From the NCBI GenBank assembly GCA_013373635.1, contig JABXHN010000010.1, positions 1 through 64,000 on the forward strand: DNA of 64,000 nt, in the 5' to 3' direction. The DNA is from Flavobacteriaceae bacterium (lineage in GTDB: Bacteria > Bacteroidota > Bacteroidia > Flavobacteriales > Flavobacteriaceae). This document shows, piece after piece, positions 34,899 through 39,530 of the stretch. A program made the position numbers and the translations under genes. How positions within the stretch are numbered: position 1 is the first letter of the stretch; each line of letters opens with the position of its first letter. Under the pieces are notes generated by a model. It ran no database searches, was not told the origin of the DNA, and worked only from the letters and a program-made list of their open reading frames with translations.

Positions 34899-35867
34899 AT
34901 GTCAAGAATATTAACGGGAATTCAGTCCACAGGAACGCCACATTTGGGAAACATTTTAGGAGCCATTATGCCAGCTATTGAAATGGCAAAGGATCCAAAA
35001 AACGAATCCTTTCTCTTTATAGCTGATATGCACTCGCTGACTCAAATTAAAGATGCAGCAGTGCTCAAAGAAAACACCTATGCTACAGCGGCTACTTGGC
35101 TAGCTTTTGGTTTAGATATCGAAAAGACTGTGTTTTACAAGCAATCAGATCTTCCTCAAACTACGGAGCTCTCTTGGTATTTAAGCTGTTTTTTTCCCTA
35201 TCAACGTTTGACCTTGGCGCATTCTTTTAAAGATAAGTCGGATCGTCTTGAAGATGTCAATGCCGGTTTGTTTACCTACCCAATGCTCATGGCAGCTGAC
35301 ATCTTGCTCTACGATGCGGAATTTGTCCCAGTGGGTAAAGACCAATTACAGCATTTAGAAATGACCCGTGATGTGGCTTCTCGTTTCCACAATAAGTTTG
35401 GGGAATGTTTTGTAATGCCTGAAGCAAAGATTCAAGAATCTTCAATGTACATTACTGGTACTGATGGCGCTAAGATGAGCAAGAGTAAAAACAATACGAT
35501 CAATATCTTTTTGCCAGAAAAAAAGCTCAGAAAACAAATCATGGGAATTCAAACAGATTCCACTCCAATGGAAGATCCTAAGGATCCTGAAACCTGCCCT
35601 GTTTTTGCTCTGTATAAAGTTTTAGCCAACGAAGAACAAATCGCTCAGATGAAAGCGAATTACCTCGGAGGAAATTACGGTTATGGACACGCCAAACAAG
35701 CGTTGTTTGAGCTAATTATGGATCTTTTTAAAGAGCCTAGAGCAAAATTTGAGTTCTATATGAACAACAAATCTGAAATCGACAATGCACTTGCCTTAGG
35801 GGCTGAAAAAGCCGCTACTGTTGCAAATGAAGTTCTCTCAAGAGTGAGAACTAAACTCGGTTATTAA
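34899..35867 (+). CDS. trpS: Tryptophanyl-tRNA synthetase
   Basis: 322 aa class I synthetase. The start MSRILTGIQSTGTPHLGN contains the HIGH-type motif (PHLGN), and the KMSKS loop is GAKMSKSKNN. Length is normal. The ATG at 34899 is chosen because an upstream in-frame ATG (34839) would add residues with no counterpart and run back over the promoter. It converges with dprA, overlapping by 4 nt. Confidence 0.96.
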   Translation: MSRILTGIQSTGTPHLGNILGAIMPAIEMAKDPKNESFLFIADMHSLTQIKDAAVLKENTYATAATWLAFGLDIEKTVFYKQSDLPQTTELSWYLSCFFPYQRLTLAHSFKDKSDRLEDVNAGLFTYPMLMAADILLYDAEFVPVGKDQLQHLEMTRDVASRFHNKFGECFVMPEAKIQESSMYITGTDGAKMSKSKNNTINIFLPEKKLRKQIMGIQTDSTPMEDPKDPETCPVFALYKVLANEEQIAQMKANYLGGNYGYGHAKQALFELIMDLFKEPRAKFEFYMNNKSEIDNALALGAEKAATVANEVLSRVRTKLGY

Positions 35868-36730
35868 TCCCAACCCAAAAATTGAACGAGGTCTTGAACG
35901 CTACTAATCAATTGTGCTTTAGCATCTCTTATGAGGTGATTGCAGCCCTGATGTGGATCACTGCATCTCGAAGGAAAAGCAAAGACTTCTCTATTGTAAG
36001 AATTTGCTAAATCAGCAGTAATCAAACTCCCTCCTTTGAGAGGAGATTCTACCACTATTGTCGCTTTTGTGAGTCCCGCAATAATCCGATTTCGTTGAAC
36101 GAACTTATAAGGCAGGGGTGCTTCCTTAGGGAGAAACTCAGAGATGACTCCCCCCTTTTGCTCCATCATCTTTCTAATTTGTGAATGAGCTAAAGGATAG
36201 GTTCTATGAAGACCATGTGCCATACAACCAATGGTTTGTAAGTCGTATTTAAGGGCCGCTTTATGTGCTGCAATATCAATACCATAGGCCAGTCCCGATA
36301 CGATTGTAGGTTTGTAAGGGGCTAGTTCTCTGATCAGTTTTTCAACTAATTTCAAAGCTTGGGGGCTTGGGTTTCTAGTCCCCACAACAGAGATCCATCT
36401 CTGGGTATTCCATTGAATCGATCCCGATGCAAATAAAATCAAGGGGGCATCATCGCATTCCATCAACAGCGAAGGATACCCCTTTTGGCCGTATCCCAAT
36501 AGTTGATAGTTGCTGTTTTTAGCTTCCTTTAAAACAGTCATAGCTCGATCTAAATAGGTTTTTGAAAAGAAGTCGACTCCCTGATGAAAGTCTTTAGATT
36601 GGAGCAGTTGAAGTTCCCTTTCAAAAATAGCGGTAGCTGATTTAAATTTTTTATACAAACGCAGTGCTTTTAGTAGGCTGATACTAGGAGTGATATGTAA
36701 TCTTACAAGGGATAGAAGCTCTTGTTCCAT
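35864..36730 (-). CDS. dprA: DNA-processing protein DprA, short form
   Basis: 288 aa. DprA loads RecA on incoming single-stranded DNA during transformation. The Rossmann core is complete: VVGTRNPSPQA, IVSGLAYGIDIAAHKAAL, FVQRNRIIAGL, ESPLKGGSLITADLA and REVFAFP. The usual C-terminal winged-helix (DML1-like) domain of about 60 residues is absent; the protein ends at LVQFLGWD. The start may be 36730 or the in-frame ATG at 36754; further upstream is unlikely because it would enter the divergent gene. Confidence 0.9.
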   Translation of the reverse strand: MEQELLSLVRLHITPSISLLKALRLYKKFKSATAIFERELQLLQSKDFHQGVDFFSKTYLDRAMTVLKEAKNSNYQLLGYGQKGYPSLLMECDDAPLILFASGSIQWNTQRWISVVGTRNPSPQALKLVEKLIRELAPYKPTIVSGLAYGIDIAAHKAALKYDLQTIGCMAHGLHRTYPLAHSQIRKMMEQKGGVISEFLPKEAPLPYKFVQRNRIIAGLTKATIVVESPLKGGSLITADLANSYNREVFAFPSRCSDPHQGCNHLIRDAKAQLISSVQDLVQFLGWD

Positions 36731-36825
36731 CTTATTTTTACCATTTGTTTGCATCTTTTTTACTAAAAATATTCTTACATTTACTCTTCCCAAATCATTG
36801 TTGAAACCAAAACCAATCGAAATCA

Positions 36826-37749
36826 ATGCGATTAGAACAGCATATAGCGCCTTTACTTTACAGACACCACTGTGTAGTTGTGCCTGAATTCGGAGCATTT
36901 TTAACTAGAAAAATTGCTGCCTATTACAACCCACAAACACAGTCGTTTTACCCACCTTCAAAAGGGTTGTCTTTTAATGGACAGCTACAGACTTCTGACG
37001 GAGTTCTAGTGAGCTATATAGCATCAGTTCAAGGATGTTCTTACGATCAAGCACAAGATCAATTAACAAGGGTTGTCAATCAGTGGAAAGCTGATTTAGC
37101 CAACGGTCTTAGTCTCGATTTAGAGCATATAGGACTCATTTCAAAAAACGAAGAAGGACATATCGTCTTTAAACCTTATCACGATCACAATTACCTCAAC
37201 AGTTCTTTTGGACTTGCTCCAGTAAGTGCAGCTCTTATCGAAAAAGCTACTCAGCCAATTGTTCGACAATTAACCCCTGAATCTCAAGCTGACTTCAAGA
37301 TAGGAAAATCACTGATGAAATACGCTGCAGTAGGTTTAATTGCAATAAGTACTGCTTTGGGAGGTCTTCAACTGCGTTCTTCATATGAGAACAACAGTGT
37401 TTTAGCAGCTAAATCAGCACAAGAAACTATCGAAAAAACAATTCAAGAAGCGAGCTTTTTTAGTGATAACCCAGTAGATTTACCTGTATTAGAGGTTGAG
37501 GTGAGTATCCCAAAAGCTGAAATGCACTACTTTATTATCGCTGGTTCGTTTATCAAAGAAGAAAATGCCTTAGCTCATATTGAAAAACTCAAAAAGAAAG
37601 GCTTTGATACTTCAGAAATTATCGGTCAAAATCCATTTGGATTGTACCAAGTTGGTCTCAATGCCTTCGCTGAAGAACTTCAAGCGAGAGCGTTCTTAGC
37701 AACTGCTAGAGCTAATGGTAATGAATCTGCTTGGTTACTCGTAAAGTAA
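36826..37749 (+). CDS. HU(CCDC81)-SPOR domain membrane protein
   Basis: 307 aa. The N-terminal 140 residues form the prokaryotic CCDC81-type HU domain (HHCVVVPEFGAFLTRKIAA, GLSLDLEHIGLISKNEEGHIVFKP), related to DNA-binding HU/IHF. A single hydrophobic segment (about 165-182) is followed by an acidic linker and a SPOR domain (about 233-307, HYFIIAGSFIKEENALAHIEKLK), which binds denuded septal peptidoglycan. The order implies HU in the cytoplasm and SPOR in the periplasm. It is divergent from dprA. Domains are recognised; a DNA-to-wall tether is inference. Confidence 0.85.
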   Translation: MRLEQHIAPLLYRHHCVVVPEFGAFLTRKIAAYYNPQTQSFYPPSKGLSFNGQLQTSDGVLVSYIASVQGCSYDQAQDQLTRVVNQWKADLANGLSLDLEHIGLISKNEEGHIVFKPYHDHNYLNSSFGLAPVSAALIEKATQPIVRQLTPESQADFKIGKSLMKYAAVGLIAISTALGGLQLRSSYENNSVLAAKSAQETIEKTIQEASFFSDNPVDLPVLEVEVSIPKAEMHYFIIAGSFIKEENALAHIEKLKKKGFDTSEIIGQNPFGLYQVGLNAFAEELQARAFLATARANGNESAWLLVK

Positions 37750-38265
37750 TTAATCCTCTTTAAAAAGCGCTTTTAATTCAGTAGCATCTGATGGCTTCAT
37801 CTTTTTGGCGAGTACCAAAGAGAGCTGCTTGCGTCTTAGTGCGGCATCAAAACGCTCTTTTTCTAAAGCTGTTTCAGGCTGAAGTTCTGGCACCTCGGTA
37901 GGTTTTCCTGTATCGTCAACTGCGACAAAGGTGTAAATCGCTTCATTGGCCTTAGTGCGCTCTCCGGTATAACGATCTTCGATCCAAACATCTATAAATA
38001 CTTCCATCGAAGTTTTAAAAGCCCTTGAAACAGCTGCTTCTACAGTAACTACCGATCCTAAGGGAACCGCTCTGTTAAATGCAACGTGGTTTACAGATGC
38101 AGTCACTGTGATTCTGCGCGAGTGTCTTCTCGCTGAAATACTAGCTGCACGATCCATTCGCGCTAAGAGCTCTCCTCCAAACAAATTGTTGAGTGGATTA
38201 GTTTCACTTGGCAAGACCATATCGGTCATGATTGTTCTAGATTCAGAGGGTGTTTTTGGCTTCAT
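37750..38265 (-). CDS. Acyl-CoA thioesterase, hotdog fold (YciA-like)
   Basis: 171 aa. Signatures are MVLPSETNPLNNLFGGELLARMDRAASISARRHS with the catalytic Asp, and VNHVAFNRAVPLGSVVTVEA. It hydrolyses acyl-CoA thioesters in the cytoplasm. The ATG at 38265 fits family starts; an upstream ATG at 38310 would overlap the preceding gene's end and the -7 element. The C-terminal 25 residues are a charged tail. Confidence 0.88.
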   Translation of the reverse strand: MKPKTPSESRTIMTDMVLPSETNPLNNLFGGELLARMDRAASISARRHSRRITVTASVNHVAFNRAVPLGSVVTVEAAVSRAFKTSMEVFIDVWIEDRYTGERTKANEAIYTFVAVDDTGKPTEVPELQPETALEKERFDAALRRKQLSLVLAKKMKPSDATELKALFKED

Positions 38266-38280
38266 CGTTAATCGTTTAAG

Positions 38281-38288
38281 CAAAGGTA
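38281..38288 (-). promoter_or_regulatory. Thioesterase gene -7 element
   Basis: TACCTTTG on the minus strand, the same octamer as before thiL, lies 15 nt upstream of the thioesterase ATG and next to the stop of the EnvC-like gene. No clear -33 TTG. Confidence 0.45.
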
Positions 38289-38291
38289 TTA

Positions 38292-39530
38292 TTATAGTTT
38301 GTATATCCACTGCTGTGGATTGAGTTTTGTCGTATTTTGATAGAGGTAGAATTTGAGCTGTGTTTGTCCATTAAATGCATTAGTACTTACAATTCCCAAA
38401 GGCGTCTTCTCTGTAACTTGATCTCCCTTGCTCACAGAGACACTTTTAAGGTTGTAATAGGTGCTGATATAGTTTCCGTGTCGAACTTGGACTCCTAATC
38501 CTCCTCCTGGAACTCTCAATATGGCAACAACCTCTCCTTTAAATATAGATCGAGCCTCAGCATTGGCTTCTGTAGCGATAATAACCCCGTTATTTTGGTG
38601 TTTGATCTCTGGATAAACAGGATCCGTATAAACTCCAAACCCTCTTTTGACAATTCCTTTGGCTACTGGCCAAATCAGCTTTCCCTTATTGGCTTCAAAA
38701 TCACTAGCTACTCTTTTAGTCTCAGCAGTCAGCACAAAGCCAGTAGAAGTGTTAGAAGTGTTTTTAGTAGCAGTCTCCTTCTTCTTATTAGCAGCGGCAA
38801 TGGCTTCCTTGATCATCCTTTCGATCTGAGCATCAATGGCCTTAGATCTCTTGGTTTTTTGAGCGATTTCTCGTTGATATTTTGTCTTGTTCTTACGAAT
38901 AGAGCCCAGAGAATTTTGAAGATTTCCCTTTTCGTTTACAAGAGTAGCTCGTTCTTTTCTGTTCTCGGCCAACAGCACTTCCTTTTGCTTCTTTTGACTT
39001 CTTAGTTCTTTAATTTTTTTTAGCAAATCCTCTGATTTAGAACTGATTTCAAGAGTTTGTTTTTTGCGATACTGTGCGAATTGCTTTAAGTATTGCATTC
39101 GTTTATAAGCCTGGTAAAAGTTCTTTGAAGAGAGCAAGAACATCAGTCTGCTTTGCTTGGATTTTGATATATAAGACCGCTTGATCATCGCGGCATAATC
39201 CTTTTTGAGGGTCTGAATTTCTCGCTCTAAAGAACCAACTGTCAATTCTTCTTTTTCAATAGCTCTATTGATGATATTGGCTTGTTGATTGGTCACTCGA
39301 ATGAGTTGTTCTCGAACACTGATTTTGCGATTTAAATCTTCAATCTCATCCTCAAAACTCTTTTCTTTTTCGCCTGTACTGAAAAGCAATTTTTCGATTT
39401 GAGCGATCTCATTTTGAAGCCTCGTTCGCTCGTCTTCCAGTTTTTTCTGTTGGTTGGTTTGAGCCATCAGAATTCCTGTTCCCAAAAGAAATAGCATCAA
39501 AAACAATCGGTATGGAAGTACTCTAATCAT
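38292..39530 (-). CDS. EnvC-like murein hydrolase activator
   Basis: 412 aa. A signal peptide (about 1-23) is followed by a long coiled coil (about 25-250) and a C-terminal LytM/M23 fold. The M23 metal site is degraded: NNGVIIAT stands where HxxxD should be and HGNYISTYYNL lacks the second His. This is the pattern of EnvC, which has lost peptidase activity and instead activates amidases at the division site. It overlaps the DUF4292 gene by 8 nt. Confidence 0.85.
   Translation of the reverse strand: MIRVLPYRLFLMLFLLGTGILMAQTNQQKKLEDERTRLQNEIAQIEKLLFSTGEKEKSFEDEIEDLNRKISVREQLIRVTNQQANIINRAIEKEELTVGSLEREIQTLKKDYAAMIKRSYISKSKQSRLMFLLSSKNFYQAYKRMQYLKQFAQYRKKQTLEISSKSEDLLKKIKELRSQKKQKEVLLAENRKERATLVNEKGNLQNSLGSIRKNKTKYQREIAQKTKRSKAIDAQIERMIKEAIAAANKKKETATKNTSNTSTGFVLTAETKRVASDFEANKGKLIWPVAKGIVKRGFGVYTDPVYPEIKHQNNGVIIATEANAEARSIFKGEVVAILRVPGGGLGVQVRHGNYISTYYNLKSVSVSKGDQVTEKTPLGIVSTNAFNGQTQLKFYLYQNTTKLNPQQWIYKL

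Follow-up and report, generated by a model that had tools for sequence, protein, structure and literature searches.

Proteins of the Bacteroidota that join HU-CCDC81 domains (PF18174 and PF18175) and a SPOR domain (PF05036) in one chain are the closest described relatives of the gene studied here, and Burroughs et al. (2017) reportedly predicted a chromosome-partition role for the HU-CCDC81 proteins of Bacteroidetes. We found no paper on the HU-CCDC81/SPOR proteins in the open-licence literature, which is weak evidence of absence since coverage was limited to open-licence papers. The gene, hereafter HU-SPOR, occupies positions 36826..37749 of the forward strand of a 64,000-nucleotide stretch of DNA (the window, meaning that whole stretch) from a Flavobacteriaceae bacterium of the order Flavobacteriales, whose genome is a 2.5-Mb draft of 97 contigs. 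An earlier note on the window had proposed that the protein encoded by this gene could tie the nucleoid to septal peptidoglycan.

Further described systems share one or another feature with HU-SPOR or its setting. Tol-Pal has a role in outer-membrane constriction (PMC12440217), and Bacteroidota are reported to be without identifiable tol-pal loci, PorE (a cpoB-tolB-pal-like fusion) being the proposed tether between outer membrane and wall in Bacteroidetes and vWA force transducers of the PVC group being found together with genes of the TPR (tetratricopeptide repeat), tolQ-like, and tolR-like kinds (PMC12204202). FtsN is bitopic, with its N terminus inside and a C-terminal SPOR domain (PMC7939390), and the FtsN-like SPOR protein RgsS of S. 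meliloti shares an interaction network with the inner-membrane parts of Tol-Pal (PMC7822825). Among eukaryotes, CCDC81b (PDB 8V3I) is a proposed microtubule inner protein (PMC11961760).

We tentatively assign HU-SPOR to the inner membrane as a component of a Tol-like, proton-driven trans-envelope or division machine, a proposal to which we give slightly less than even odds. The order of the neighbouring genes in relatives makes envelope constriction at division more likely than tying DNA to the wall.

Gene order around HU-SPOR

HU-SPOR is a real, strongly conserved gene. Its frame runs from the ATG at 36826 to the stop at 37749 (plus strand; 307 codons, 307 aa), and the opposite strand is interrupted by many stops. 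Compared with a 95%-identical relative, it carries 16 amino-acid and 54 synonymous-codon differences (nonsynonymous divergence dN 0.024, synonymous divergence dS 0.354), with the lowest dN in the first HU domain. A protein search recovered it in 57 of 60 genomes of the order, its own included, and in 45 of the 46 order genomes with completeness of 90% or more and contamination of 5% or less. The three misses are a 0.3-Mb genome and two drafts that are 61% and 82% complete, and across the order the identity goes down to about 22%. A scan of 36500-37900 for promoters and terminators gave signals at about the level of shuffled sequence. One genome of our set (G015) holds two full-length copies, and another Flavobacteriales genome (G038:C1:1759298) encodes, beside the usual copy, a second, divergent protein of 301 aa with HU, membrane helix, and SPOR.

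Loci were read at three ranges, namely 80 named loci of the family, 37 of the order, and 39 outside the order from 17 families, the last taken in two batches of 23 and 16. Outside the order, HU-SPOR stands between a barrel-like gene and TolQ/ExbB- and TolR/ExbD-like genes in 27 of the 39 loci. The barrel-like gene (~570 aa) lies upstream in 32 loci from 13 families (in one of them by a weak partial match), the two motor genes follow downstream on the same strand in 27 loci from 10 of the 17 families, with agreement between the batches (17/23 and 10/16), and a TPR gene of ~1000 aa precedes the barrel in 25 loci from 12 families. In 26 of these 27 loci no more than 126 bases separate the HU-SPOR stop from the TolQ-like start, and in the other (L119) the distance is 634 bases. 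All four neighbours (TPR, barrel, TolQ-like, TolR-like) occur together in 20/39, and a TonB-like gene was recognised in 15. A Pfam tally of the first-batch neighbours (132 proteins) is led by ExbD (17) and MotA_ExbB (16). As a control, none of the cluster queries matched anything in the 80 family loci, and in the 37 order loci none matched next to HU-SPOR. An ExbB gene 2.4-4 kb from HU-SPOR in four of the order loci, followed by a short gene and then one or more ExbD-like genes, was not counted because this arrangement is that of the own genome's other ExbB copy. The ~570-aa protein appears to be an outer-membrane barrel, judging from its signal peptide, its length, and the weak C-terminal match of its own-genome homologue to TonB-dependent receptors; Pfam gave no match for any barrel-like protein scanned.

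Pieces of the same cluster are found elsewhere in the genome of the window. On another contig, genes for TolQ-like (88.8 bits), TolR-like (40.4 bits), and transducer-like proteins are followed by folC, and the HU-SPOR-linked TolQ/ExbB proteins of four relatives match this TolQ-like copy at 40-46%, compared with 30-36% for the other ExbB. On a third contig (L274:3717-9303), a TPR gene of ~1000 aa and a barrel-like gene of ~580 aa are adjacent and divergent from a gene for an FtsE-like ATPase (TIGR02673, 250 bits; cut-off 264.85). The TPR protein scores over the tol_pal_ybgF cut-off (140.7 versus 90.1 bits), bearing in mind that TPR models cross-match easily, and it has a sub-cut-off match to PorW/SprE. 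TPR and barrel genes are adjacent in 8/8 Flavobacteriales loci read (a barrel match being present in 19/21 genomes), with an FtsE-like gene alongside in 4/8, and the TPR proteins from HU-SPOR-linked and unlinked loci are full-length homologues.

Within the window, the genes next to HU-SPOR are of other kinds. Downstream and convergent with it lies a gene for a 4HBT-type thioesterase (37750..38310, minus strand; PF03061, E 2e-16), which is found near HU-SPOR in 74/80 family loci (on the HU-SPOR strand in 73 and on the opposite strand in 1). Next comes a gene for an EnvC-like M23 protein, a putative amidase activator (38292..39530, minus strand; PF01551, E 2e-13), whose best NCBIfam match is EnvC NF008644 at 69 bits, under the cut-off of 270; HU-SPOR is thus two genes from it in the own genome, and such a gene lies 2.1-7.4 kb downstream in 63 of the 80 family loci (70 of the 80 extend to 5 kb on that side). 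On the other side lies dprA (35864..36754, minus strand; PF02481, E 7e-70), the longest frame of which overlaps the HU-SPOR start by 73 bases (36730-36898); its start is uncertain, with 36754 or 36730 more likely. The earlier note had pointed to this divergent neighbour as another DNA-handling gene. The adjacency itself is well kept, being seen in 78/80 family loci with the centre of dprA at a median of 546 bases upstream and never more than 5.9 kb away, but we do not accept it as a functional clue because the block also carries trpS (70 of the 80 loci), plsC (67), and recA (56) and dissolves outside the family, dprA having moved or been lost in other families. In seven loci from several Flavobacteriales families, a kdsB-like gene (CMP-KDO synthetase, identified by eye) stands directly upstream of HU-SPOR in the place of dprA.

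Domains, topology, and binding surfaces

The chain carries, as the earlier note described it, an HU-like (CCDC81) part, one membrane helix, and a SPOR domain, and its three Pfam matches all exceed the curated cut-offs, placing it among the HU-CCDC81/SPOR proteins. From the N terminus, and all on the plus strand, these are HU-CCDC81_bac_1 (HU1; aa 2-58, 36829..36999; PF18174, E 3e-20, 72.3 bits against 26), HU-CCDC81_bac_2 (HU2; aa 59-128, 37000..37209; PF18175, E 3e-20, 72.4 against 35), the membrane helix (about aa 162-182, 37309..37371), a conserved segment predicted to be periplasmic (aa 204-222, 37435..37491; family motif I-Q-E-A-T-F....P..L-P), and the SPOR domain (aa 234-302, 37525..37731; PF05036, E 4e-5, 24.4 against 21). 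Conservation was followed in three alignments that include the window: A4 (55 sequences, i.e., the window and 54 of the 80 family loci), A1 (36 order members), and A2 (22 phylum-wide members). HU1 has the highest mean conservation among the segments scored, with 25/58 positions at least 90% identical in A4, and the aa 204-222 segment has 8/19. PF18175 is matched by 36/36 members of A1 and PF18174 and SPOR by 35/36 each; the corresponding counts in A2 are 22/22, 10/22, and 17/22, so that 12 of the 21 distant members show a single recognisable CCDC81-type HU domain and 5 are without a recognisable SPOR. A search of the PDB with the whole protein sequence gave a best E value of 0.85.

The single hydrophobic helix fits a single-pass protein, and the HU part is probably cytoplasmic and the SPOR domain outside, a topology that the earlier note had also predicted and that positive-inside counts of lysine plus arginine favour. 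The N-terminal side is the richer one in 67 of 73 scored family loci (equal in 6, lower in none; 7 of the 80 were dropped for low hydropathy), in 32/36 order loci (equal in 4; 1 unscored), and in 15/20 distant loci (equal in 3, against in 2; 3 unscored). The window protein itself ties, 2 versus 2 in 15-residue flanks, because one Lys lies within the scored stretch. An AlphaFold2 model computed from A4 has a mean pLDDT (predicted local distance difference test) of 82, with values of 85-98 for aa 1-120, below 50 for aa 146-160, and 95-98 for aa 241-307; its pTM (predicted template modelling score) is low (0.45), so the model does not settle how the parts are arranged with respect to one another. 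One unbroken model helix spans aa 162-209, making the membrane helix and a predicted periplasmic stalk continuous.

Foldseek gave no match to the model at E <= 0.001, and the structural rows given here come from re-examining its list with VIA-align, in which many Z scores are below 8, where the tool warns of merely common arrangements. Within the model, aa 56-124 aligns with HU at Z 7.2 and a root-mean-square deviation (rmsd) of 2.2 over 69 residues and thus has the HU fold. For aa 1-128 the top row is chain T of 9io5, from the gliding motor of Mycoplasma mobile (Z 8.4, rmsd 3.1, 109 aligned), the second is 8snb_1K, from doublet microtubules of sea urchin sperm (Z 8.1, rmsd 5.1, 120 aligned), and doublet-microtubule chains of T. 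brucei and Tetrahymena follow at Z 6.4 and 6.0.

Canonical HU and IHF proteins are basic and have two long arms with conserved Arg/Lys and a tip Pro. HU-SPOR departs from this pattern, with a net charge of -2 over aa 1-128 in the window protein (A4 mean -2.0) and one short beta-arm, which the strand list of the model places in HU1, HU2 having an HU fold with no arm. Over the first 128 residues the mean is -2.4 both for the 80 family loci, of which 4 reach +3 or higher, and for the 37 order loci, of which none does; over the first 75 residues it is -4.0 for 23 distant loci, again with none at +3 or higher (the start codon is misplaced in two of these, L115 and L117). By comparison, the HU proteins of the own genome have net charges of +8 and +5 and arms of +6 and +5. 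Basic residues occur in at least 70% of A4 at position 46 (100%; K46 in 55/55), position 13 (98%), and position 112 (75%; His in the window), and the arm itself is weakly basic and has no conserved basic position other than K46. Hence, DNA binding by the HU part, as the earlier note had it, is not borne out. The charge and arm data are arguments against ordinary HU-like DNA binding rather than proof, and a local basic patch could bind. A second HU-CCDC81_bac_2 match in the own genome was rejected as a relative, being an ordinary HU protein. In three distant relatives (L113, L114, and L112), the stretch before the helix has net charges of -110, -88, and -81 and long D/E-rich linkers; these may be halophiles.

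These data bear most directly on a DNA tether, in which the cytoplasmic HU pseudo-dimer would sit on chromosomal DNA and the SPOR domain on septal peptidoglycan, so positioning or partitioning the chromosome. We consider this tether, which Burroughs et al. (2017) reportedly also predicted, unlikely. It would be consistent with the HU fold of aa 56-124, with the match of aa 1-123 to single-chain IHF, a DNA-binding protein (Z 6.1, rmsd 2.3, 84 aligned), with the predicted cytoplasmic side, with an arm stretch (aa 23-51) whose net charge is +3 in the window protein and averages +1.6 in the family, with the conserved K46 and the basic residue at R13, and with matches to the general HU family Bac_DNA_binding in 6/36 order and 14/22 phylum members. 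Against it stand the negative HU part at every range, set beside the own HU proteins, the one short arm in place of two, and the cytoplasmic part of net -110 in one relative, possibly a halophile effect. As for the nucleoid-septum tether of the earlier note, a link to envelope or division genes emerges from the gene order, and neither DNA binding nor denuded-glycan binding is supported.

The SPOR domain has the expected fold, aligning with the SPOR domain of RlpA bound to denuded glycan (6i09; Z 8.9, rmsd 2.7, 72 aligned) and with that of CwlC (1x60; Z 9.7, rmsd 2.6, 78 aligned). In RlpA, the polar contacts to glycan involve the side chains of Q270, R302, and R309, with R311, and many contacts are made through the backbone (PMC6895207). 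Q270, R309, and R311 were mapped by alignment through CwlC. The Gln position is Ile/Val in 55/55 family and 34/36 order members, the other two order members having a Ser and a gap; Lys/Arg stands at the R309 position in 0/55 and 12/36 and at the R311 position in 0/55 and 0/36. HU-SPOR thus lacks the conserved Gln and two Arg of the characterised denuded-glycan site, and the earlier note's assignment of this activity loses its signature residues. Two conserved aromatic positions would correspond, by analogy, to RlpA F274 and DamX W416, namely F242 (Phe/Tyr in 55/55) and the beta-4 Trp, W303 (55/55 family, 35/36 order). A basic residue stands at each of positions 243, 250, 251, and 295 in 85% or more of the family sequences, and of these only 295 is basic in the window protein; the net charge of the domain averages +3.7 in the family and is 0 in the window protein. 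Another SPOR protein encoded by this genome, small and secreted, has RIQ and YRVRVG at the glycan-site places. Wall binding by the SPOR domain of HU-SPOR may therefore occur. Contig C70 of the own genome encodes a protein of ~700 aa that begins with a signal peptide; its C-terminal half has SPOR matches at two sites, and three SPOR-like repeats are seen by eye.

SPOR, helix, and cytoplasmic part together invite a comparison with FtsN, which FtsA recruits and which activates septal wall synthesis. HU-SPOR could be its counterpart, a divisome activator whose HU part would bind some division protein in the cytoplasm, whose periplasmic segment would activate septal wall synthesis, and whose SPOR domain would add retention at the septum, with no dedicated tie to a Tol-like motor. 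We hold this to be improbable. The layout is the same (cytoplasmic part, helix, periplasmic segment, and C-terminal SPOR), the aa 204-222 segment is conserved, and HU-SPOR is present in nearly all good genomes of the order; further, the FtsN model TIGR02223 gave no own-genome match and none over cut-off in 21 genomes, and, among the 30 SPOR proteins retrieved out of 38 matches in 15 genomes, those without HU that have a readable start look secreted or lipoprotein-like by eye. Yet the segment motif is, by eye, retained within the family and not outside it in A1, there is no sequence relation to FtsN, and the Tol-like cluster of the relatives would be left unexplained. Two weak sub-cut-off FtsN matches in relatives proved to be the HU-SPOR frames themselves.

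Motor identity and a possible role

The Tol-like proposal depends on what the motor genes are. All four TolQ/ExbB proteins tested from outside loci score best with the NCBIfam tolQ model, and tolQ is above exbB in 5/5 when the own-genome copy is included. Also counted in its favour were the EnvC-like gene downstream of HU-SPOR in most family loci, the slightly acidic HU part, and the gliding-motor and microtubule rows of the structural comparison. Precedents are the network that RgsS shares with Tol-Pal and the part that Tol-Pal plays in outer-membrane constriction.

Several observations weigh against it. The 39 outside loci were picked by us for spread from 151 of 296 genomes with matches, and several share families; seven of them (a doubtful member, L257, among these) show none of the cluster neighbours, and no FtsE-like gene was found near HU-SPOR in any of the 39. 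In the own genome and family the cluster is split and HU-SPOR is not linked to motor genes, so that the window protein has its Tol-like link by orthology only, and the own-genome transducer-like gene matches no model. The tolQ scores (65.6-93 bits) are all under the equivalog cut-off of 221 and the tolR scores under that of 127.3, so that the linked genes do not qualify as tolQ/tolR equivalogs, and of the TolR/ExbD proteins tested, three of four from outside loci lean towards ExbD and one towards TolR (three and two, respectively, among five overall). A TonB C-terminal domain is over cut-off in one downstream transducer and below it in another. The IHF match given above belongs here as well. 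Finally, in one family of the order, the protein is of ~250 aa, with HU and membrane helix and a Lys-rich tail replacing SPOR, in 5/5 loci read (one assessed by Pfam scan, the other four by length and tail), so the HU part seems to have a job that does not need SPOR; four of these five proteins end in WQK or WQR.

The motor could, in consequence, be a nutrient Ton system. That HU-SPOR is an accessory of a Ton nutrient-uptake or type IX/gliding complex, scaffolding on the wall a transport system made of barrel, TPR protein, and ExbB/ExbD/TonB, is in our view very unlikely, for although the TonB-type domain, the ExbD leaning, and the weak matches of barrel (TonB-dependent receptors) and TPR protein (PorW/SprE) are in keeping with it, HU-SPOR is found in nearly all order genomes, some near 1.6-1.7 Mb, the tolQ model is consistently the closer one, and pieces of the cluster have FtsE-like and EnvC-like neighbours in Flavobacteriales.

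On the Tol-like reading, HU-SPOR would be a Bacteroidota envelope protein that crosses the inner membrane once. Its HU pseudo-dimer would face the cytoplasm, most likely as a protein-docking module rather than a DNA clamp, and the membrane helix is predicted to run on as a periplasmic helix and flexible linker, letting the SPOR domain reach peptidoglycan. Candidate partners are a TolQ/TolR-type motor, a TonB/TolA-like transducer, the outer-membrane barrel, and the YbgF/CpoB-like TPR protein, whose association with HU-SPOR is observed as gene order in relatives and would, we infer, extend to a physical complex. The protein may place or regulate this machine where the cell constricts and so couple the splitting of the wall to the invagination of the outer membrane.

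Comparison with known systems

The microtubule chains matched by aa 1-128 (8snb, 8g2z, 9e2g) may be CCDC81-type proteins, given their fold and the proposal that CCDC81b is a microtubule inner protein, the alignment itself naming assemblies only. Such proteins would share the tandem HU-like fold with HU-SPOR; to our knowledge, they have neither a membrane helix nor SPOR and sit in doublet microtubules. If the Tol-like reading is right, HU-SPOR would provide a bacterial setting for an HU fold with a structural rather than DNA-packing job.

Like HU-SPOR, E. coli FtsN is bitopic, with its N terminus inside and a C-terminal SPOR domain, but it has a short cytoplasmic tail where HU-SPOR has an HU pseudo-dimer. 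S. meliloti RgsS is a SPOR protein as well; it is alphaproteobacterial, and the part of its source used here mentions no HU domain. PorE and the vWA transducers are set apart from HU-SPOR by their descriptions, which, in the part of the source used, mention neither HU nor SPOR. With the HU-CCDC81/SPOR proteins of Bacteroidota there is no architectural difference, and HU-SPOR is a further member. That architecture is already known; what our analysis adds is the Tol-like gene cluster.

The cluster resembles proteobacterial Tol-Pal in that TolQ/TolR-like motor and YbgF/CpoB-like TPR genes lie near HU-SPOR in relatives, and it differs in that its motor genes fall below the TolQ/TolR equivalog cut-offs and in that it includes an outer-membrane barrel and HU-SPOR. 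If it serves as proposed, the pulling-in of the outer membrane at division in Bacteroidota could be put to a direct test in a laboratory flavobacterium through the loss of one or two genes. In its most specific form, which we put forward as a possibility with rather more doubt than confidence, the series TPR, outer-membrane barrel, HU-SPOR, TolQ, TolR, and TonB/TolA would be the counterpart of Tol-Pal in Bacteroidota, with HU-SPOR as its inner-membrane hub between wall and cytoplasm and the HU fold repurposed as a docking module for the cytoskeleton or divisome.

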